From Mycobacterium sp. EPa45 (GTDB lineage: Bacteria > Actinomycetota > Actinomycetes > Mycobacteriales > Mycobacteriaceae): a stretch of 64,000 bases of DNA. This document shows, one piece after another, positions 44,597-54,935 of the stretch. Where the stretch lies: contig NZ_CP011773.1 in the NCBI RefSeq assembly GCF_001021385.1, positions 6,014,001-6,078,000 of the forward strand. The letters are read 5' to 3'. The translations under genes and the position numbers were made by a program. The notes under the pieces were generated by a model. That model had not been told where the DNA came from. It worked only from the letters and a program-made list of their open reading frames with translations, and did not search any database. Position 1 is the stretch's first letter, and each line of letters begins with the position of its first letter.

Positions 44597-45217
44597 TTAC
44601 CCGCGAAGCTCGGAAAGCCATCGCCCGATCCCGCGCGGATCCGCGATGTGATCCGGATTGACAACGCGCATGGCGGCATTGACGGCCATGGCTGCCTCGC
44701 AACTGTCCGGATCCTGCAACACGACCCGTCCACCGGCGCCTTTCACGTCCTCGCAACCGCGGGCTCCATCTTCGCTCGCGCACGAAAGCAAAACGGCCGT
44801 TACCGAATTGACGAGCTGGGCCGCGCTGGAGAACACCGCGTCCAGCGAGGGACGCGAGCACAGGATCGGTGGATCCAAAGTCAGGTGGGCGCGCACGCCG
44901 GGACCCGTCTCATACTGCTCGATCGGCGTCTGCGGCTCCGTCGACCGGCCGCGGTCGTTGCCTGCCAGCAGGTGGTATCCGGCAGGGGCGAGGGTGACCT
45001 CGCCAGGTGTGCACGGCCACGGACTGTTGCTCGGTTCACGAATCGGAATTGCGGTGTAACTCTGGAGAACTCGATCAAGTCCTGAGTACTGCGGCGCGCG
45101 ATGCAACACCACGAACACCACCGTGTTGCCGATGTCGACGAGTGTTTCGAAGATCCCTCGCAACGCCTTGATTCCCCCGGCACTGCCTCCGATCACAACG
45201 ACGTCAGGGCCCGACAT
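44597..45217 (-). CDS. CheB-type methylesterase domain protein
   Basis: A 206-residue CheB C-terminal (methylesterase) domain without a receiver domain. VVIGGSAGGIKALR holds the serine, VVLHRAP the histidine and CASEDGARG the aspartate of the catalytic triad. In bacteria with chemotaxis such enzymes deamidate or demethylate chemoreceptors. Here the gene is coupled to cheR (14-base overlap) and a hybrid kinase but no receptor is present. The target is therefore unknown, possibly the kinase itself. Confidence 0.85.
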   Translation of the reverse strand: MSGPDVVVIGGSAGGIKALRGIFETLVDIGNTVVFVVLHRAPQYSGLDRVLQSYTAIPIREPSNSPWPCTPGEVTLAPAGYHLLAGNDRGRSTEPQTPIEQYETGPGVRAHLTLDPPILCSRPSLDAVFSSAAQLVNSVTAVLLSCASEDGARGCEDVKGAGGRVVLQDPDSCEAAMAVNAAMRVVNPDHIADPRGIGRWLSELRG

Positions 45218-46070
45218 ACTGATTCTGACTCTTGGCGTAGATGCCCAGACGGCGGTCCTGCGGCTTGAACAACCGCATGCCGTCGACGGTCAGGCCCTCC
45301 CGTGGACCGATGACGAGATTGCCGAATGGAGCCAAGCTCTCCCAGAACATGCGTTCGGCCCGGCGTTGCAGCGTTTCCTCGAAATAGATGAAGACGTTCC
45401 TGCACAGGATCAGATGAAATTCGCCGAAGGTGCTGTCGGTGGCCAGATTATGCGAGAAGAACTCCAACCGCGAACGCAGTGTCGGGCTGAGAATGCACCG
45501 ATCATACTTGGCGATGTACCAGTCCGAGAATGGTCTTACCCCGCCGCTGGCTTGGTAATTGCGGGTCGCGCCCACCATGGCATCCGCGGGGTAGATTGCC
45601 GACGCGGCGATCTTGAGGGAGTCGCTGTCGATATCGGTTGCATAGATCGTCGACCGATCCAGCAGACCGGCCTCATCCAGAAGGATCGCAACGGAATACG
45701 CCTCTTCACCCGTCGCGCAACCCGCGACCCAGATCCGGATGCGCGGGTAGGTGGCCAGTCGGGGCAACAGCTCCGCACGGATGTTGTTGAACACCAGTGG
45801 GTCTCGGAACATCTCGGTAACATTGACCGTCATCGTGGACAGCAGCGAGGCCAACAGGCTGGGATCGCGGAGCACCCGATCCTGAGCCCTGGATATGGTG
45901 CCCAACGAATGCCGTTCGACGAACGCCATCAGCCGTCTATTGCGCGACGCATCCGTGTAGTGACGAAAGTCGTAGCCGAGAAACTCGTACACCGCGTAGA
46001 AGAACGCCTCCGCCTCGATCGCCGTCAGTTCCTTGGACCGAGCCGGATCATTCTCCGCGGGATTACTCAT
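45204..46070 (-). CDS. CheR-type protein methyltransferase
   Basis: A 288-residue CheR methyltransferase. The N-terminal helical domain is followed by the Rossmann-like SAM site IRIWVAGCATGEEAYSVAILL, then FHLILCRNVFIYFEETLQ and a C-terminal IGPREGL. It would transfer methyl groups from S-adenosylmethionine to glutamate side chains. Its stop and start overlap both neighbours: cheB downstream and the hybrid kinase upstream (8 bases), so one operon. No methyl-accepting chemoreceptor gene is visible in the window. Confidence 0.9.
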   Translation of the reverse strand: MSNPAENDPARSKELTAIEAEAFFYAVYEFLGYDFRHYTDASRNRRLMAFVERHSLGTISRAQDRVLRDPSLLASLLSTMTVNVTEMFRDPLVFNNIRAELLPRLATYPRIRIWVAGCATGEEAYSVAILLDEAGLLDRSTIYATDIDSDSLKIAASAIYPADAMVGATRNYQASGGVRPFSDWYIAKYDRCILSPTLRSRLEFFSHNLATDSTFGEFHLILCRNVFIYFEETLQRRAERMFWESLAPFGNLVIGPREGLTVDGMRLFKPQDRRLGIYAKSQNQYVGP

Positions 46071-49000
46071 TGGTGCTTGCCGCCCCCTGCTGGCCTCGCA
46101 ACCGACTGCCCAGCCACACCCTGAGCACGGATGTCAACTGATCCATGTCGACCGGTTTGGTCACATAGTCCGAAGCACCTGCGTCCAAGCACTTCTGGCG
46201 GTCACCCTTCATTGCTTTTGCCGTCAACGCCACGATCGGCAAGGTGCGCCAGCGGGATTCAGCCCGGATCCGCCGCATCGCCTCGTAACCGTCCATGACC
46301 GGCATCATGATGTCCATCAACACGAGCCCCACCTCTGGATGCGCGGCGAGGCTGTCAAGTCCTTCTTGCCCGTTTCGGGCGGGTATCACCGTGATGCCGT
46401 AGCGCTTCAGCGCGCTACCCAGTGAGAAGACGTTGCGGACGTCATCGTCGACCAGCAGGACGGTGTTGCCCTTGAGGCTTTCGTCGACCCGCTTGGGGTT
46501 TGACAGAATTTCGCGGGCCGAGTCGGGCATGTCGGTGGCCACGCGGTGAAGGAACAGTGCAGTTTCGTCCAGCAGCCGCTCAGGTGATTTGGCGTTCTTC
46601 AACACGATGGCAGAAGCCAGCACCTCGAGGCGCTGCGTCTCGGCGGTGGTCAATTCCCTTCCGGTGTGGACGATTACCGGCAGATGTTTCTGTTTGAGCT
46701 GATCCTTGACCCGCTCGATGAGATCTATGCCGTCCATATCGGGCAGCCCGAGATCGAGGACCAGACAGTCGTACGAGGTCGGTCCGGCCAATTCGGCCAG
46801 CACCTGCTGGCCGGTTCCGACGCACGTGATCGCGATATCGTCGCTCTCGATCATGTGCTTGACAACCTGACGCTGGCTGGCATCGTCTTCGGCGACCAGC
46901 ACGTGGCGCGGCCCCGGCTTCAGGAAATCGGCGACCGCGCTGAACATCGACCGGAGATCGGCGACCTCGGCGGGCTTGTTCAACGTGTGGATTGCACCCA
47001 TCCGCCGGCCGCGGCCGTCGTCGTTCGCACCCGAAATGACGTTGACCGGTATGTGCCGCGTGGCGAGGTCATGCTTGAGCACGTCCAGGACAACCCAGCC
47101 GGCCATGTCCGGCAGACCGATATCCAACGTGATCGCGGCGGGTTGCCTTTCCTTCGCCAGCGCCAACGCCATTCGGCCGCTTGCGGTGACGACCGCATCG
47201 AAGCCGGCTTCCGTGGCCAGCTCGACGAGCAATCCTGCAAATGTCGGGTCGTCCTCGACCACAAGCAGGACCGGTTTGGACCCTTCCGGCCAGCTGACGG
47301 ACGAAATATCCACCGCGCCAATGCGTGAGAGCGCACCATCGGCTTCAGGCGACATCTGACCAGGCGACACCTCAGCGGTGGACGCGGATCCGTTTGCGGC
47401 CACCTGCTGCGGTGCCGGCGGGGCGAGCACACTGCTCGGTGGCGCCGCAGCGCGCGGGGCCTCGGGCAGCGCGGCGTCACCCGCCTGTGGGGACGTGACG
47501 GGCAGATAGCAGGTGAAGGTTGATCCCTCGCCCAGCGCACTGCGCAGCGTGATTTCGCCGCCGAGGTTGCGTGCGAGTTCGCGGCTGATCGCCAGCCCCA
47601 ACCCGGTGCCGCCGTACAGCCTGGTGTTTCCCTTGGCCGCCTGCTGGAAGGACTCGAAAATCAGGTGGTGGTCCTGCTCGTCGATACCAATTCCGGTGTC
47701 GACGACGGCCACTGCCAGGTAACCGGTTCCTGGGTTGCCTTCGATGTCACCCGCCCCCGACAGCTCCACGGTCACCGAGCCTTGGTCGGTGAACTTGATC
47801 GCATTGGCCACCAGGTTCTTCGCGATCTGCTTCACGCGCGTGTAGTCACTGAAGAGTTGCGTTGGGGTGGCGTCGCCCACCACCACCCGGAAGCTGACAC
47901 CCTTGTTGTCCGCGATCGGGCGAAAGGTGCGCTCGAGGAAGGCGACCAGGTCGCTTACCTGGATCAGCTCGCGCTCCAGACGTAACGATCCGGATTCCAC
48001 CTTGGCAAGGTCGAGCACCTCGTCGATGAGGTTCAACAGGTCCTTGCCGGACTGTTGAATCGTCTCCGCGAACTCCTGCTGTTTGTCGGTGAGGGGGTCA
48101 TCCGAATCGGCCAACAAGCCCGCCAGGATCAGGATGCTGTTGAGCGGTGTCCGCAACTCGTGCGACATATTCGCCAAGAACTCCGACTTGTACCGCGATG
48201 AGACGGCCAGTTCCTCGGCCTTGGCTTCGAGGGTCTGGCTGAGCCGATGCAATTCGTTGTTCTTCTGCTCCAGCGACTGCGCCTGCGTCTCGAGGCGCTC
48301 CGAACTCGCCCGCAGTTCTTCCTGTTGCGAGCGCAGCTCCTCGGTCGTCTCCTCCAGCTCGGCATTCTGGGCCGATAACTGGTCTTCGCGTTGCGTCAGC
48401 TGTTCGTTCGCGGTCCGCAACTCCTCTTCCTGCGCCTGCAGTTCCTCGGTCTGCGCCTGGGACAACCGCAGCAACTCATTGGTCTTCTGTGCGGACTCGA
48501 TGGCGCTGAGGGCAACTCCCGCTCCGAAGGCAATGCTCTCCAACAGTTCGACATCGTCCTGCGAGAACAACCGCAGGGCGGCAAGCTCGAGGACGCCGTG
48601 CACCTCGGAGTCGGTCTTGATGGGAATGAGGATCAGCGACACCGGGTCCGTCTTGCCCAAGCCCGAGACGATCTCGACATAGTCCCCGGGGGCGCCGGTG
48701 ACCTCGATCCGATTGCCCTCCAGCGCGCACTGGCCGACCAGCCCGTCCCCCAATCCGAACGAATTCGGCAAGTCCTTGCGGCGGTGGAAGGCATACGAGG
48801 CCACCAGGTCGAACCGGTCCATCTCCTGCGCCTGCCGCAGATACAGGGCTCCGTGTTTGGCATCGAGTGCCTGCGCAGTGCGTGACACGATGACCGAACC
48901 CGCGGATGCCAGATCAGGCGCCGCCTGAATCTCGGTCATCAGATTCGCCTGAGTTTCCTTGGCACGGCGGGCCTTTTCGTTCTGTTCGGCCGCCCCGGTC

Positions 49001-49626
49001 ACCGTGCGATGGATATTGCGGCTGGTGAAATACAACATGATGCCCAGGACCAGGACGATGGCGCTGGCGAGGATCCACAGCAGTGACCGGGCGAAACGGA
49101 CCGCATTTTCCGCCCTGGTGTTGGCACTGGCGACGGCCTTTACCGAGTCCTGCTCGATCTGGCCCAACTGACTCTCCAGCGCCGCGACCTGACCGGCGAG
49201 GTCTCTCGCGGAAGCCACTGCCTGCCCATTGTTCTGGGCGTTCTGCAGATCGGACCGATAGTTCGACCGGAAGGTCGACCAGGTGCCCAGTGCCTGCTGG
49301 TACATCGAGCGGATCGAGCTGTTGTCCTCGGTCTCCGCGCCCGCTCGAAGCTCGGTGTCAACGGTTCGGTCGAGTTCGTCGAGCTCGCCGGCGAGTTCCG
49401 CGCGGCGGGCGGGGTCGTTGGAGAACAACAGCCTGTCGTGCGCGACGAGCAACGCCTTCAGATCACGCTGGACGTCGAGTGCGGCGACCTGGTCGTTGCG
49501 GGCTTGGGACCGCTCCTCGAACAGGTCGGTGATCTGCCGGAGTTGAACGGTGTAGAGCGTATTCGCCATGATGACGGCGAGAAGCGCGCATCCGCACACG
49601 ATCGCCAGTCGGGTCGCAAGCTTCAT
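46063..49626 (-). CDS. Hybrid sensor kinase with three receiver domains
   Basis: A 1187-residue membrane kinase. TM1 lies near 5-25 and TM2 near 182-201 with a helical extracytoplasmic domain between; a GAF domain follows (about 235-378). Residues 396-473 form a leucine heptad coiled coil with 12 leucines exactly seven apart and many Glu/Gln pairs. The phosphorylated histidine is His489 in NMSHELRTP, with an ATP-binding domain (DTGIG 643-647, GGTGLGL 672-678). Three receivers end the protein with phospho-acceptors near Asp835, Asp958 and Asp1105; the last has the KP pair at Lys1157. It is coupled to cheR and cheB downstream and is 6 bases after the GGDEF-EAL gene. Confidence 0.93.
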   Translation of the reverse strand: MKLATRLAIVCGCALLAVIMANTLYTVQLRQITDLFEERSQARNDQVAALDVQRDLKALLVAHDRLLFSNDPARRAELAGELDELDRTVDTELRAGAETEDNSSIRSMYQQALGTWSTFRSNYRSDLQNAQNNGQAVASARDLAGQVAALESQLGQIEQDSVKAVASANTRAENAVRFARSLLWILASAIVLVLGIMLYFTSRNIHRTVTGAAEQNEKARRAKETQANLMTEIQAAPDLASAGSVIVSRTAQALDAKHGALYLRQAQEMDRFDLVASYAFHRRKDLPNSFGLGDGLVGQCALEGNRIEVTGAPGDYVEIVSGLGKTDPVSLILIPIKTDSEVHGVLELAALRLFSQDDVELLESIAFGAGVALSAIESAQKTNELLRLSQAQTEELQAQEEELRTANEQLTQREDQLSAQNAELEETTEELRSQQEELRASSERLETQAQSLEQKNNELHRLSQTLEAKAEELAVSSRYKSEFLANMSHELRTPLNSILILAGLLADSDDPLTDKQQEFAETIQQSGKDLLNLIDEVLDLAKVESGSLRLERELIQVSDLVAFLERTFRPIADNKGVSFRVVVGDATPTQLFSDYTRVKQIAKNLVANAIKFTDQGSVTVELSGAGDIEGNPGTGYLAVAVVDTGIGIDEQDHHLIFESFQQAAKGNTRLYGGTGLGLAISRELARNLGGEITLRSALGEGSTFTCYLPVTSPQAGDAALPEAPRAAAPPSSVLAPPAPQQVAANGSASTAEVSPGQMSPEADGALSRIGAVDISSVSWPEGSKPVLLVVEDDPTFAGLLVELATEAGFDAVVTASGRMALALAKERQPAAITLDIGLPDMAGWVVLDVLKHDLATRHIPVNVISGANDDGRGRRMGAIHTLNKPAEVADLRSMFSAVADFLKPGPRHVLVAEDDASQRQVVKHMIESDDIAITCVGTGQQVLAELAGPTSYDCLVLDLGLPDMDGIDLIERVKDQLKQKHLPVIVHTGRELTTAETQRLEVLASAIVLKNAKSPERLLDETALFLHRVATDMPDSAREILSNPKRVDESLKGNTVLLVDDDVRNVFSLGSALKRYGITVIPARNGQEGLDSLAAHPEVGLVLMDIMMPVMDGYEAMRRIRAESRWRTLPIVALTAKAMKGDRQKCLDAGASDYVTKPVDMDQLTSVLRVWLGSRLRGQQGAASTNE

Positions 49627-49632
49627 GTCTCC

Positions 49633-52233
49633 CTAGCTCTCACCGGTAACCTTCGCTCTCCAAGCAGTGGGCCACTTCTCCACCTCCGCGGCCAGGTCCG
49701 TCGCCTCGATCGGATGGGCGTAGGAGAATCCTTGCTGCAGAACGCATCCCGCGTCCCGCAACCAGTCGGCCTGCTTCTGGTTCTCGACCCCTTCGGCGAT
49801 CAAATCGACCTGCATACACGCGGCCAGTGCGATCTGGCTGCGTACCAGCCGTTGTACGCGCCGGTCGTCATGGACCTCGGCGACGAACGTGCGGTCGATC
49901 TTCAACCAGTCGACGGGGATGTGCAGCAGGTTCGTCATACTCGCATGGTCGACACCGAAATCGTCTATCGCCAAGTTGAATCCGATGCTTCGAGCGTGGC
50001 GCAGCGCCACACACGCCGGAGTTGGGTCACGATAGAACGTGCGCTCGGTGACTTCCAGGCAGATGTTCTCCGGTGAGATCCCGTTGTCTCGCTGGACACC
50101 GATCAGGTCGTCGAGGAAGCTTCCGTCGAGCACGTGGTCCGGCGAGATGTTCACGTGCAGCTTCAAGTCGTCTCTTCCCAGGGCTGCGAAGTCCTCGAAA
50201 CTGCGCACCAGGATCCATCTGCTCAATGGGGCGATCTGCCCGGCACTTTCGGCCAGCGCGATGATGTCGGTTGCGGGCATCTCCTCACCACCGACCCGCC
50301 AGCGGACCAGGGCCTCGAGCCCGAAAAGCGCTCCGGTGGCTGAGTTCACGATCGGCTGATAAGCCATCCGAAACTCCGACCGGGCAATGGCATCCGCGAC
50401 TTCCGATCGCAGGTCTACCCTTCCTCTGTGCCGCGACCCGATCCCATCGGTGTAGAGGACACATTCGTCGAGCCGGTTCTTCTTCGCCTCGAACATGGCG
50501 ATATCGGCCTGGTTGAGCAACTCCTCGGGAGTGTGTGCGCTCGCGCCGAGACACGAGATGCCCATGCTCAGCGACGGATACAGCGTCACGTTCTTACAGT
50601 GAACCGGTTCGCCCTGGACCTGCTGCAGGATCCGGTTCCCCGCTGCGACGGCATCGTCGATCGACCGCACATCTTCGAACACGACGATGAACTCGTCCCC
50701 GCCGATGCGGCAGACCAGTGCGTCGTTGCCGGCGGCCAACCTCAGCCGCACAGCGACTTCGACGAGCAGCTCGTCACCGGTGTCATGGCCGTAGGTGTCG
50801 TTGACCGACTTGAACCTGTTGACGTCCATGTACATGAGTGCAGCCAGTTTTGTGTGGTCCGGCCGGCGGGACAGCTCCGCGAGTCGCTCGTTAAGTTGCC
50901 GACGATTGGCCAGGTCGGTCAGCGGGTCATGGCTTGCGAGGTGGCTGATCACCAGTTGGGCCTGCTTGATCTCCGTCAAGTCATGCACCACGACCGCGAC
51001 GTGCAGATCGATCGAGTCACCGATCGGCGACAGTGTGATCAGGACGTCGACGGGGCGACGGAGGCCGGCGGCGAACGTCATCTCCATCGACACTTCCTGG
51101 TGCGTCGCCAGGGTGCAGTCCAATTGTTCACGCAACCTGTCTCGATGCGCGTCGACGGCGAGGTCCACGATGGATCGGCCGATCAGGCTGTCGTCGTGCC
51201 CGCTGAACAGTGCGATGGCGGCCTTGTTGCAGCTGCGGATCGCGCCCGTGGCATCAACGGCGAGGATCGCGTCAGCGGTGGCCTGCATAACGGCGGCATA
51301 CTCCGCCTGAACCCGGTAGAGCGTGGCGTTGGATATCGCGAGAGCGGCTGCCACGGATGTGCCGCGGAACAGCGCGGTCTCGACTTCGGAAAAGGCGGGA
51401 CCGTCGGTGCGGCCGACACAGAGAATACCGACAGGTTGTCCTCGGGCCGACAACTCCTGGATCATGACCGCCCCGCCGGGCATCGGGCTGCGCACTCCGC
51501 CGGATGCCTGCTCAACGAGCCACTGCTGCAGCAACTCCGACCTTCGACCCGCTTCGGTGTGCGAGAACGAGTCCTGCCACTGGCTGCCCGGGGCCGGCAG
51601 ACGAAGCAGACATGCCGCGTCGAACAATTGGCTCATCTCGGCGACGATGGTCTTTTCCAAGGTCGGCAGGTCGATGCTGTCCTCGGCGAAGATATTGGCC
51701 AGCCGAGCCCGCCGCCGCGTAAAGGCAAGCTCTTCACGCTGGCGGCTCTCGGCGGCACGTGCGATCTGGAGTTGCTGTTCATGCAGGCGCGCCGCCTCCA
51801 TGTGAAGTTTGGCAAACGATTGGTCCAGCTCCAGCAAAGCTTTCACTTTGCCGTAGAGCACCGCTGCCGAAACTGGCTTGAGCAGAAAATCCACCGCTCC
51901 CAGGTCGTAGCCGCGATCGAGATCGCCGTCGTCCGCCTGGCCGGTAAGGAAAATGATCGGCGTAGAGGCCAACTCGTCGGCCTCCCGAATAAGACGTGCG
52001 GTCTCGAATCCGCCCATCCCCGGCATGTTGATGTCGAGCACGATCACCGCAACCTTGCGCTGCAGCAGTTCGGTGAGCGCCTCCTCGCCCGAGCCTGCCT
52101 GGACAAGTTCGCAGTCCAGGGGCCTGAGCACGGTACACAGCAGCTCCCGCAGCCGGTCATCGTCGTCGACAACCAGGACCGTCTGTTTGCTCTCGGTTGT
52201 CGTGGGCTCCTGCACCACGCCATCCATCAGCAC
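49633..52233 (-). CDS. REC-GAF-PAS-GGDEF-EAL cyclic-di-GMP protein
   Basis: About 866 residues. An N-terminal receiver has VVDDDD and Asp67 in LDINMPGMGG, with Lys119. GAF-like and PAS-like domains follow, then GGDEF (511-515, CRIGGDEFIVVF) and an EAL domain with EAL at 640-642, DDFG at 757-760 and IAEGVENQ. Both catalytic sets look intact; the RxxD inhibitory site before GGDEF is absent. It could both make and break cyclic-di-GMP under phosphorylation by the neighbouring kinase. GTG 52233 is chosen (ATG 52227 is near) and it is first in the operon. Confidence 0.9.
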   Translation of the reverse strand: MLMDGVVQEPTTTESKQTVLVVDDDDRLRELLCTVLRPLDCELVQAGSGEEALTELLQRKVAVIVLDINMPGMGGFETARLIREADELASTPIIFLTGQADDGDLDRGYDLGAVDFLLKPVSAAVLYGKVKALLELDQSFAKLHMEAARLHEQQLQIARAAESRQREELAFTRRRARLANIFAEDSIDLPTLEKTIVAEMSQLFDAACLLRLPAPGSQWQDSFSHTEAGRRSELLQQWLVEQASGGVRSPMPGGAVMIQELSARGQPVGILCVGRTDGPAFSEVETALFRGTSVAAALAISNATLYRVQAEYAAVMQATADAILAVDATGAIRSCNKAAIALFSGHDDSLIGRSIVDLAVDAHRDRLREQLDCTLATHQEVSMEMTFAAGLRRPVDVLITLSPIGDSIDLHVAVVVHDLTEIKQAQLVISHLASHDPLTDLANRRQLNERLAELSRRPDHTKLAALMYMDVNRFKSVNDTYGHDTGDELLVEVAVRLRLAAGNDALVCRIGGDEFIVVFEDVRSIDDAVAAGNRILQQVQGEPVHCKNVTLYPSLSMGISCLGASAHTPEELLNQADIAMFEAKKNRLDECVLYTDGIGSRHRGRVDLRSEVADAIARSEFRMAYQPIVNSATGALFGLEALVRWRVGGEEMPATDIIALAESAGQIAPLSRWILVRSFEDFAALGRDDLKLHVNISPDHVLDGSFLDDLIGVQRDNGISPENICLEVTERTFYRDPTPACVALRHARSIGFNLAIDDFGVDHASMTNLLHIPVDWLKIDRTFVAEVHDDRRVQRLVRSQIALAACMQVDLIAEGVENQKQADWLRDAGCVLQQGFSYAHPIEATDLAAEVEKWPTAWRAKVTGES

Positions 52234-52811
52234 GGGATTAATGTTCCCTCCCGCGCGAGGTCTGGCACAAGCACTCGAACTTTCACTCCCCCGACTCTTT
52301 TCGTGAACAATGACCCGTTGCAATAAGTGTGCCGCTGCGCCACCCCCATAGGACGCCAATCGACAAATACAGCAAATTTCGTCGCTTAACCGTGATGTAG
52401 TCGGTGCGCCCGTCGGCATACGGTCGCTCCGAGACCGTTCGGCGTGGCGTCCCGACGTACCTTCCTCTAGGTTCGGGGCGATCGATCAAACGCGGCAGCG
52501 CAAACTCCGCCTGCAGAATATCGACCACCCCGACGCAGCGTTCGGTATCCGCGCGTGTCGGCGAGTCCAGACAGTCGTCGGATCGAGACGAATCCCACCG
52601 CGACGCGAGCGCACCTGCAGCACCGGACCTCCGACCCATCCCCAATCGCCGGGCGATCCTCTCCAATGACGCCGCCCGTCGTCAGGGTGATCTCGTGGCG
52701 ACGGGTCCCTCACGCTGCGTCGACGTCCGGAGCTATGACGCTTCGGCAAACATTCCCACCGGCCGTCGCATTCCAGTGCAGATTCGCGGGTCGTGGGGTC
52801 TACTGGTGGCT
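52234..52811. other. Divergent intergenic region, no clear gene
   Basis: About 578 bases between the starts of two divergent cyclic-di-GMP genes. It should contain both promoters. GGGAGGGAA upstream of 52233 is a likely ribosome-binding site for the minus-strand operon. Frames that cross this region show no recognisable domain. Nothing else was identified. Confidence 0.5.
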
Positions 52812-54935
52812 ATGCGGTTCGAGGGGGTCGACGAACCACTCGCAGACGACGGGCCCGAGATTCCCGTCGAACTCATTCGTACCCTCTTGGGCCTGTTGCG
52901 AAGCCGTCTCGGGCTGGAAACCGCGTGGCTGGCCTCGTTCCGCGATGGGATGCAAACGTTCGAGGTGCTCGACGGCGACACTGACGCAGTAAGTTTCACA
53001 TCCGGCGACCGTGCGTCACTATTCGATTCCTATTGTGTTCGAGTCATCGACGGGCGGCTGCCCGGAATCATCCCCGATACCCGGGCCAACCAGACCACCG
53101 ATGCACTTCCCGTCACTCGTGAATTCGGCCTCGGCGCCTACGTCGGCGTGCCGGTGCTCAACCGCAACGGCGCCACGATCGGAATGGTTTGTGCTGTCAG
53201 CCGTGAGGCCAAGCCGTACCTCGCCGATATCGACCTGCGCATTGTCAAGCAGATCGCCGAACTCATCGGCACACTCATCGAATCTCCGGATAGTGGCACC
53301 GATACCACCGCGGCTCAGCGGGCGGCGATCCGAAGGGTGGTGTATCAGCGCGATTTCGAGGTGGTGTTCCAGTCGGTCCACGACGTCCCGACCGGCAAGG
53401 TGGTGGGTGTCGAGGCGCTTGCCCGCTTTCCCAGAGAACCATTTCGTCCTGACGGATTCCTCGCGCAGGCAGCACTGTTGGGGCTGGGGATCGAGTTGGA
53501 GACCGCGATCGTGGCGCGGGTCATCTCAATGGTGCCGCAGCTGCCCGAGGACATCTTCATCGCAGTGAACATCTCGCCCGCGGCGGCGCTGGTCGCTCCG
53601 TGGAGTCAAATGCTGGCCGATGTCGACCCCTCGCGAATTGTGTTGGAGCTGACCGAACACGATGCCGTCCTCGACTACGGCGCGTTGGACGACGCGTTGG
53701 AGCCGTGCCGCGCACGAGGCGTCCGGGTGGCGGTCGACGACGTCGGCGCCGGCTTCTCCTCGTTCTCTCACGTCCTCGAACTGAGCCCCGAATTCGTCAA
53801 GATCGACCAGTCGATCACCCGCCACATCGACGTCGACGATGCCCGACGCAGACTGGCGCACGCCATCGCCGAGCTCGCCGGTCAGATGGGCGCGACGGTG
53901 ATCGCCGAAGGTGTTGAGACACAAGGTGAACTCGATGCCATCAACGCGGTCGGCATCAGCTCGGCCCAAGGGTATTACCTCAGCCGCCCACGGCCACTCG
54001 TGCACGGGTTTCCGGCTGCTGCTGCGGCGGCGTCGAGTGATCTGCTTCCCACCGCGGTCGACCTTCTCGGCGAGCGGCGGTTCGAACTGGCGCTCGCCCA
54101 TTCGCCCATCGGCATGGCTGTTGTGGGGTTGGACGGGACGTTCCTACGCACCAATCGCGCTCTGCGGACGATGCTCGGATACACCAAACGCGAGTTGGCC
54201 GAACTCACCTTTCAGGAAATAACCCACCCCGACGATCTCGAGGCCGATATCGCACTTCTCACCGAATGCCTGGAGGGACGGCGCCGCTCCTACCGCATCG
54301 ACAAGCGGTACATCGCTGCCGACGGCCGTGTCGTGTGGGGCGCGTTGACCGTAGTGGTGGTGAACGCACCGCGAGATCAGCCGCGCTATTTCGTCTCGCA
54401 GATCGTGGATGTGACTGCCGACCGCATCCGTGAGGCCGCTCTGGCACGACAAGCCGCCACCGACCCGCTGACCGGGGTCGCGAACCGGTCGGCCGGTTGG
54501 AGCCGCCTGGAACAGCTCCACGTCAGCGGACGGGGTTACGGGATCCTGTTCTGCGATATCGAACGCTTCAAAGCCGTCAACGATCAGCACGGCCACCGCG
54601 CGGGTGACCAGTTGCTGGTGCAGGTCGCCGGGCGGCTGCAAGCGGCGGTCGGAGAGGACGATGTCGTCGCCCGCTGGGGCGGCGACGAATTCCTGGTGAT
54701 CACCGATTCAGTCAACGACTGGGAACTCGCACGCCTGGCCGACCGGATCACCGACCAGCTGGACACGGCGCCGGTGATGCTCGGCGAGGGCAAGCAAGTT
54801 GCGGCCAGGTTGACCATCGGAATCGCCGCGCACCACACCGGTGACGGACGCTCGATCGATGCCGTCCTCGAACATGCCGACCAGGCCATGTACAACAAGC
54901 GACGCCGACGACGCCGACGGGCCGCGGGTAGTTAG
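52812..54935 (+). CDS. GAF-EAL-PAS-GGDEF cyclic-di-GMP protein
   Basis: A 707-residue cytoplasmic protein with the rarer order EAL before GGDEF. An N-terminal GAF-like domain (about 20-160) precedes an EAL domain (EAL 201-203, VDDVGAGFSS near 308-317, IAEGVET), a PAS domain (about 425-540) and a GGDEF domain (GGDEF 623-627) ending in a basic, arginine-rich tail. There is no RxxD inhibitory site. Both halves retain the main catalytic residues. It is divergent from the GGDEF-EAL/kinase/CheRB operon and probably acts in the same circuit. ATG 52812 is chosen since the GAF domain begins soon after. Confidence 0.9.
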   Translation: MRFEGVDEPLADDGPEIPVELIRTLLGLLRSRLGLETAWLASFRDGMQTFEVLDGDTDAVSFTSGDRASLFDSYCVRVIDGRLPGIIPDTRANQTTDALPVTREFGLGAYVGVPVLNRNGATIGMVCAVSREAKPYLADIDLRIVKQIAELIGTLIESPDSGTDTTAAQRAAIRRVVYQRDFEVVFQSVHDVPTGKVVGVEALARFPREPFRPDGFLAQAALLGLGIELETAIVARVISMVPQLPEDIFIAVNISPAAALVAPWSQMLADVDPSRIVLELTEHDAVLDYGALDDALEPCRARGVRVAVDDVGAGFSSFSHVLELSPEFVKIDQSITRHIDVDDARRRLAHAIAELAGQMGATVIAEGVETQGELDAINAVGISSAQGYYLSRPRPLVHGFPAAAAAASSDLLPTAVDLLGERRFELALAHSPIGMAVVGLDGTFLRTNRALRTMLGYTKRELAELTFQEITHPDDLEADIALLTECLEGRRRSYRIDKRYIAADGRVVWGALTVVVVNAPRDQPRYFVSQIVDVTADRIREAALARQAATDPLTGVANRSAGWSRLEQLHVSGRGYGILFCDIERFKAVNDQHGHRAGDQLLVQVAGRLQAAVGEDDVVARWGGDEFLVITDSVNDWELARLADRITDQLDTAPVMLGEGKQVAARLTIGIAAHHTGDGRSIDAVLEHADQAMYNKRRRRRRRAAGS

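Follow-up and report, generated by a model that had tools for sequence, protein, structure and literature searches.

Here we analyse a cluster of signalling genes at positions 44,597 to 54,935 of a 64,000-nucleotide stretch of the Mycobacterium sp. EPa45 chromosome (hereafter the window; contig NZ_CP011773.1, forward-strand positions 6,014,001 to 6,078,000). Four genes are transcribed on the minus strand in the order REC-PAS-GGDEF-EAL response regulator, hybrid histidine kinase, CheR and CheB, and a fifth gene, encoding a protein with EAL and GGDEF domains, diverges from them. Open reading frames (ORFs) and domain profiles place all five genes where a first-pass annotation of the sequence had put them, with the domains it had claimed (Table 1). 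A single transcript is likely for the four genes, because the regulator and kinase genes are spaced by 6 bp and the kinase/CheR and CheR/CheB pairs overlap by 8 and 14 bp, respectively. The longest ORFs of the regulator and of the EAL-GGDEF gene overlap head to head. Both genes probably start inside these ORFs, because similarity to the orthologs begins there, and the internal starts would therefore leave a divergent gap of about 0.5 kb, in which a promoter scan of window positions 52227-52812 found no sigma-70-like promoter. The gene that follows CheB in the window is convergent and of the MaoC type.

Table 1. Genes of the cluster and segments of the kinase (positions in the window; segment limits in kinase residues)
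Feature	Position	Strand	Description
CheB-family methylesterase	44597-45217	-	206 aa; CheB_methylest E 1.7e-29; catalytic domain only, without REC
CheR-family glutamate methyltransferase	45204-46070	-	288 aa; E 1.5e-35; without fused domain
Hybrid histidine kinase	46063-49626	-	1187 aa; GAF, HisKA, HATPase, three REC
Kinase segments, sensor to coil			helical sensor 2-235 (model), GAF 244-373, glutamate-rich coil 380-475
Kinase segments, HisKA to receivers			HisKA 480-546 (His489), HATPase 594-711, three REC (Asp835, Asp958, Asp1105)
Kinase coil 380-475, candidate methyl-accepting segment	48202-48489	-	E394/E395, E400-E402, E436/E437; putative role
REC-PAS-GGDEF-EAL response regulator	49633-52419	-	928-aa longest ORF; probable start ~52227
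Divergent GAF-EAL-PAS-GGDEF protein	52404-54935	+	843-aa longest ORF; probable start 52695-52812

The catalytic triad of CheB consists of Ser, His and Asp, and alignment to the E. coli proteins shows that all three are retained in the window CheB, as are the Arg, Asp and Tyr of CheR. The latter are the CheR active-site residues named in PMC5907407. By alignment, the kinase retains its HisKA histidine and the phospho-acceptor Asp of all three REC domains. The regulator has a phospho-acceptor Asp (Asp129 in ORF numbering) and intact GGDEF and EAL motifs, and inspection of it by eye revealed no RxxD inhibitory site.

Mycobacteria are not known to swim. The genome is complete in a single contig of 6,177,406 bp, and its nearest named proteins come from Mycolicibacterium and Mycobacterium. 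We found 26 GGDEF and 12 EAL domains in it, and profile searches across the contig gave 0 matches for the MCPsignal domain of methyl-accepting chemotaxis proteins (MCPs) and 0 matches for the CheW domain, using profiles that were each positive in 7 of 14 control genomes. CheA was not searched by itself, and its absence is argued from the lack of CheW matches. The lack of MCP, CheA and CheW noted by the first-pass annotation is thus borne out genome-wide, for CheA by implication. Profile searches also show that the operon copies of CheR and CheB are the only ones in the genome; a weak match to a second CheR was rejected, as the ORF at that place (201 aa, not Pfam-scanned) looks like an S-adenosylmethionine methyltransferase of a generic type. 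Within the reach of the MCP and CheW profiles, a chemotaxis set elsewhere on the chromosome is excluded.

The domains of the two enzymes are those of chemotaxis CheR and CheB, and the genes might be ordinary chemotaxis leftovers, or have been recruited by a chemotaxis pathway encoded at another site in the genome. We consider this highly improbable, since MCP and CheW domains are absent from the complete genome and since the window CheB has no receiver, whereas a REC-CheB was present in 10 of 10 chemotaxis-type clusters compared (E. coli and nine of the window's class). The pattern of selection and the phylogeny of CheR, presented below, speak against it as well.

The four genes are inherited together within the genus. 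Orthologs of CheR (at least 74% identity) were found in 19 of 198 genomes of the genus, EPa45 included, and a distant CheR alone (29-37% identity) in 63 further genomes. Among named species, the environmental Mycolicibacterium M. aromaticivorans has orthologs of both the kinase and CheR. Kinase orthologs and regulator orthologs each occur in 18 of the 198 genomes (E cut-offs of 1e-150 and 1e-200, respectively, with the 3-4 best candidates scored per genome), all within the 19 genomes with a CheR ortholog. The single misses are broken assemblies: in G093 the operon is split across contigs, with the kinase tail in L057 and the regulator on another contig, and in G032 the contig begins within the kinase. 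We compared 19 loci, those of the 18 other ortholog-bearing genomes and one from a class-level search. With two of them excluded from the order count for a contig end inside the operon, the order regulator-kinase-CheR-CheB and the strand are identical in 17 of the 17 uncut loci. Only five of these 17 loci have the EAL-GGDEF gene at a distance of up to 4 kb, and it is directly divergent in two of the five, so we rejected a five-gene unit and take the core unit to be four genes. Accordingly, of the conserved five-gene neighbourhood that the first-pass annotation had proposed, the four-gene core stands and the divergent gene does not, and the search of related genomes that it had suggested identifies kinase, CheR, CheB and cyclic di-GMP (c-di-GMP) enzyme as a conserved, co-inherited unit.

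Furthermore, with five orthologs as references, the ratio of nonsynonymous to synonymous substitution rates ranges over 0.06-0.14 in CheR and 0.07-0.14 in CheB, and does not exceed that of the kinase (0.08-0.17) or the regulator (0.07-0.23). The four genes look functional and maintained as a set, and such purifying selection on CheR and CheB argues against chemotaxis leftovers.

Clusters of a kinase, CheR, CheB and a regulator are widespread and occur in many phyla. We examined 80 named loci, the best 80 of at least 583 relatives of a query alignment that combined 10 module CheRs with one CheR-PAS fusion, and scanned the loci of relatives using profiles derived from the domains in the window. 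Upstream of CheR, 71 of the 80 have a kinase or the REC tail of one, mostly with three REC domains; because of this sampling, the rate is not valid for all CheRs. Among the remaining nine loci, four have CheR less than 1.2 kb from the contig start and five were counted as being without a kinase, one of which (L145) has one on inspection. CheB is found near CheR in 62 loci. A GGDEF-bearing REC protein lies within 2.5 kb downstream of CheR in 14 loci, and in others this place is taken by a kinase-domain REC protein or by a bare REC, or is empty; L078, from the window's class, has a LuxR-type regulator. The genes after CheB vary among module loci. Hosts of module kinases include Pseudomonadota, Thermodesulfobacteriota, Bacteroidota, Bacillota, Cyanobacteriota, Spirochaetota and Verrucomicrobiota, and Deinococcus carries one on a plasmid (CheR relatives occur in 581 plasmid records, of which 8 regions were read). 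In Flavobacterium xanthum (L137:8013-10046, plus strand), CheR, CheB and a three-REC kinase are accompanied by a CheB-CheR fusion close by.

In a CheR tree of 83 rows, for which the named and the mycobacterial rows were reduced to roughly half, starred branches part 65 module CheRs from 10 chemotaxis CheRs, although the program flags long branches at this point, and the window CheR falls in the module group, not in the chemotaxis group, again contrary to what leftover chemotaxis genes would predict. The mycobacterial CheRs form one clade (support 100) near Proteobacteria with GGDEF outputs (support 81-93), which suggests a transfer from Proteobacteria together with the GGDEF output. Such a transfer is contradicted by the low similarity of the GGDEF-EAL parts and by the kinase tree, restricted to ORFs with one kinase domain and three REC domains, in which the mycobacterial kinases (seven taken) form one clade that groups with kinases of cyanobacteria, Deinococcus and actinobacteria. 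In the full module tree the GGDEF outputs are clustered, with 4 changes compared to 13.0 after shuffling and 0 of 500 shuffles as low (77 non-mycobacterial rows). Of the 112 rows, 17 had no clear neighbour, including two mycobacterial ones, and were excluded from this count; the exclusions amount to 35 once every mycobacterial row is removed.

The first-pass annotation had presented the cluster as an undescribed system, a claim that has to be withdrawn: the same widespread module has been published in Pseudomonas putida KT2440 as cfcABCDE and CfcR. As described in PMC4951495, the hybrid kinase CfcA heads cfcABCDE and is accompanied by the CheR CfcB and the CheB CfcC; the REC-GGDEF-EAL protein CfcR is a working cyclase, and its activity requires CfcA His496 and CfcR Asp65. 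Cfc and the window have in common a hybrid kinase followed by CheR and then a REC-less CheB, plus a REC-GGDEF-EAL regulator, and CfcB and CfcC are, according to that paper, without a role in chemotaxis. In P. putida 31303 (L124), whose locus we infer from gene order and species to be cfc, the kinase has three REC domains and 36% identity to the window kinase. Unlike Cfc, where KT2440 cfcR is a separate locus (PP_4959), the window has the REC-GGDEF-EAL gene at the head of the operon; it has no cfcD/cfcE-like genes after CheB, and its sensor lacks the CHASE3 match that some mycobacterial relatives have. The operon is a mycobacterial variant of the Cfc type, one that includes the gene for the c-di-GMP enzyme, and the type itself is already known.

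The 14 clusters with a GGDEF regulator (L134-L172; Rhodocyclales, Zobellella, Frateuria, Luteibacter, Pelobacter, Desulfobacteraceae and others) share kinase, CheR and CheB with the window, but their regulator lies downstream of CheR while that of the window lies upstream of the kinase, and in those regulators that have GGDEF-EAL, this part is only 27-31% identical to the window's. The Wsp and alternative-cellular-function pathways likewise tie a CheR and a CheB to a non-flagellar output, a REC-GGDEF protein in Wsp; these pathways use MCP, CheW and CheA, whereas the window genome encodes neither an MCP nor a CheW domain. CheR1 is reportedly tied to biofilm formation. For Caulobacter HmrA, the available part of PMC11481889 contains nothing pointing to a kinase-CheR-CheB module, and the titles and abstract openings of a partial literature collection report no mycobacterial CheR/CheB system, which is weak evidence that such a system is unreported.

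The receiver of the regulator points to the kinase as its partner. Using the regulator's REC and the following linker as query, we found that 28 of the 30 best non-mycobacterial matches are regulators located just downstream of module CheR/CheB, a group that makes up 90 of the 229 REC-bearing ORFs in those loci (p value = 5e-11, uncorrected for kinship). Because of these top matches, we regard the window receiver as the module's own kind with an exchanged effector. The same reasoning has been applied to CfcR and CfcD of P. putida (PMC4951495), and our REC result extends it to a wider set. By analogy with CfcA and CfcR, phosphotransfer from the kinase to the regulator is very probable.

The output downstream of this step could also be something other than c-di-GMP turnover, with the GGDEF-EAL protein acting as a sensor of c-di-GMP or a scaffold, gated by phosphorylation. 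Given the many further c-di-GMP enzymes of the genome, this one would not have to determine the pool. On the other side, both motifs of the window protein are intact and its counterpart in P. putida has cyclase activity (PMC4951495), and we judge a role as sensor or scaffold to be improbable.

In the predicted structure of the kinase, the sensor comprises four helices, two of them long, and resembles a bundle sensor, with a local predicted local distance difference test score (pLDDT) of 60-90, mostly above 80. The model of the whole kinase is weak (mean pLDDT 70, predicted template modelling score 0.32, most of residues 420-482 below 50), and a fold search with it returned histidine-kinase cores and response regulators, with ShkA best and GacS next. 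The window kinase has no match to CHASE3 at E 1, and matches only 4HB_MCP_1, at E 0.058. Three of the 18 kinase orthologs of the genus align only from residue 203-213, and the listed relatives that align only from about this point carry a CHASE3 domain. The sensor input seems exchangeable on a constant GAF-coil-kinase-REC body. Both sensor types, CHASE3 and non-CHASE3, were found in Mycolicibacterium sp. Dal123E01 (P0140 and P0216), which suggests two paralogous kinases.

We next consider the glutamate-rich coil between GAF and HisKA as a candidate methylation site. Across 50 kinases (that of the window and 49 of 120 listed relatives, with CHASE3 types left out), the mean column identity is 0.883 in the coil, compared to 0.864 in the ATPase, 0.624 in the sensor and 0.45 in the linker before the REC domains, and 11 of the 22 coil glutamates are invariant in these mycobacterial-type kinases. 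Among 72 kinases from other genera, E402 is present in 93%, and L403 and N407 in all. The window coil reads EELRTANEQL at 401 and EELRAS at 436. Of 95 three-REC kinases, 71 carry the motif EEL..[AST]N[EDA][EQ]L and 92 its relaxed form, and all 66 kinases from the three other common architectures with REC domains lack the motif. In the window genome, where 12 of 19 kinases were readable (the other seven failed the H-box pattern), it is found in the operon kinase only. Outside kinases, in a second set of ORFs, we found the motif in 28 of the 29 long ORFs of the CheR-PAS type (25 of 26 once three genes duplicated in the set are accounted for) and in both CheB-CheR-PAS-GGDEF-EAL chains. Furthermore, an E[EQ]xx[AST][ST] repeat is present 5-6 times in the coil of 28 of the 29 long CheR ORFs, and 5 and 3 times in the two fusions. 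E. coli Tsr shows EQQAAS, EETAAS and EQLTAT, spaced every seven residues, which we take to be its methylation sites. As the EELxx[AST]N motif was chosen after inspecting the sequences, its statistics are descriptive only.

CheR-borne coils occur in actinobacterial CheB/STAS/CheR-PAS-PAS sets (L080, L083) and CheB-CheR-PAS-GGDEF-EAL fusions (L082, L085), which share with the window an EELxx[ST]N-type coil and a CheR and CheB outside the classic set. Their coil is within the CheR chain itself, while that of the window is in the kinase; a profile scan of these four loci found no hybrid kinase, and CheRs of this kind are 29-37% identical to the window CheR in the genus. In L080:4274-7935 (minus strand) and L083:3202-7216 (plus strand), both from other mycobacteria, CheB, a STAS protein and CheR-PAS-PAS lie in a row, without receptors. 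The L083 STAS protein has a sub-threshold HATPase match, and the set looks tied to a partner-switching or stress pathway. L082:3029-7558 (minus strand) and L085:5912-10774 (plus strand) encode single chains of 1509 and 1620 aa with several PAS domains, one from a genome of the window's genus and one from its class, which combine CheR/CheB and a c-di-GMP output in one protein.

In line with the first-pass annotation, which had suggested that methylation tunes a kinase controlling c-di-GMP, and with the coil as a candidate site, we propose that the operon encodes a Cfc-type, receptor-less, chemosensory-like circuit in which CheR and CheB tune the kinase coil, a reading to which we assign a probability of roughly 0.62. 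Under this hypothesis, the membrane hybrid kinase would sense an outside signal via its helical sensor and a cytosolic signal via GAF, and would autophosphorylate on His489. The phosphate would pass to the REC domain of the operon's REC-PAS-GGDEF-EAL protein, with the three kinase REC domains probably serving as an internal relay or brake, and phosphorylation of the regulator would alter how c-di-GMP is made or degraded locally, with a probable effect on surface or biofilm behaviour. The REC-less CheB and CheR would set glutamate methylation in the kinase's own GAF-HisKA coil, which may tune the gain of the kinase in the way receptor methylation does in chemotaxis.

Several observations weigh against methylation of the coil. 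The MCP consensus [EQ][EQ]xx[AST][ST], tried as proof of sites in the kinases, was rejected because it is not enriched over composition shuffles, with 35 occurrences observed and 31.9 expected in 92 kinases. The EEL motif also turns up elsewhere: in 4 of 16 kinase-domain ORFs without REC, of which L091 and L105 correspond to the front half of a split module kinase, as L151 perhaps does too; in one short CheR ORF of each set, among 113 in the first and 14 in the second; and in ORFs that have no listed domain, with 1 of 4795 in the first set, which sits just upstream of a CheR (L132), and 2 of 1082 in the second. The coil is absent in 2 of the 95 three-REC kinases (L161 and L079) despite an adjoining CheR and CheB, and the shared motif may have been inherited through kinship of the kinases for another reason. 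In addition, the CheR and kinase trees disagree on the deep position of the mycobacterial set. Finally, when CfcR is over-expressed in P. putida, mutation of any other cfc gene, those for CheR and CheB among them, leaves the crinkled phenotype in place (unpublished results of the authors, mentioned in PMC4951495), and because the CheR/CheB mutants keep this phenotype, methylation would be at most modulatory there. The kinases of L161 and L079 are natural exceptions that could serve to test the methylation idea.

The strong CfcA/CfcR phenotype kept by the P. putida CheR/CheB mutants and the two coil-less module kinases that still have CheR and CheB would also suit an arrangement in which the kinase-regulator pair controls c-di-GMP and CheR and CheB are merely co-transcribed, their target being the regulator, a receptor for c-di-GMP, a small molecule or some other coil protein rich in glutamate. 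However, a kinase precedes CheR in the 71 of 80 loci whatever the regulator (GGDEF, HisKA or lone REC, and LuxR in L078), and because it does so across regulator types, we consider the kinase to be the constant partner of CheR; the coil motif, moreover, recurs in the CheR-PAS and CheB-CheR-PAS-GGDEF-EAL chains. We therefore regard another substrate as rather unlikely. The chances that the kinase coil is the CheR/CheB substrate are, judging from sequence comparison, about even. We would put forward more tentatively, and at somewhat less than even odds, a wide receptor-less chemosensory class in which the methyl acceptor is a Glu-pair coiled coil (EELxx[AST]N repeats) carried by the sensor kinase or the CheR chain, with the mycobacterial operon as a member.

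If true, the operon would encode a mycobacterial "methyl-accepting kinase", and methylation of its coil would allow c-di-GMP signalling to adapt in a cell that is not motile. Methylation of proteins as a means of sensory adaptation would then extend beyond chemotaxis, and kinases of non-motile bacteria could hold an adjustable memory feeding c-di-GMP. The coil motif supplies exact residues, so that the substrate of receptor-less CheR/CheB pairs becomes directly testable. For mycobacteria, the operon is a likely input to the large c-di-GMP network formed by the 26 GGDEF and 12 EAL domains of the genome.

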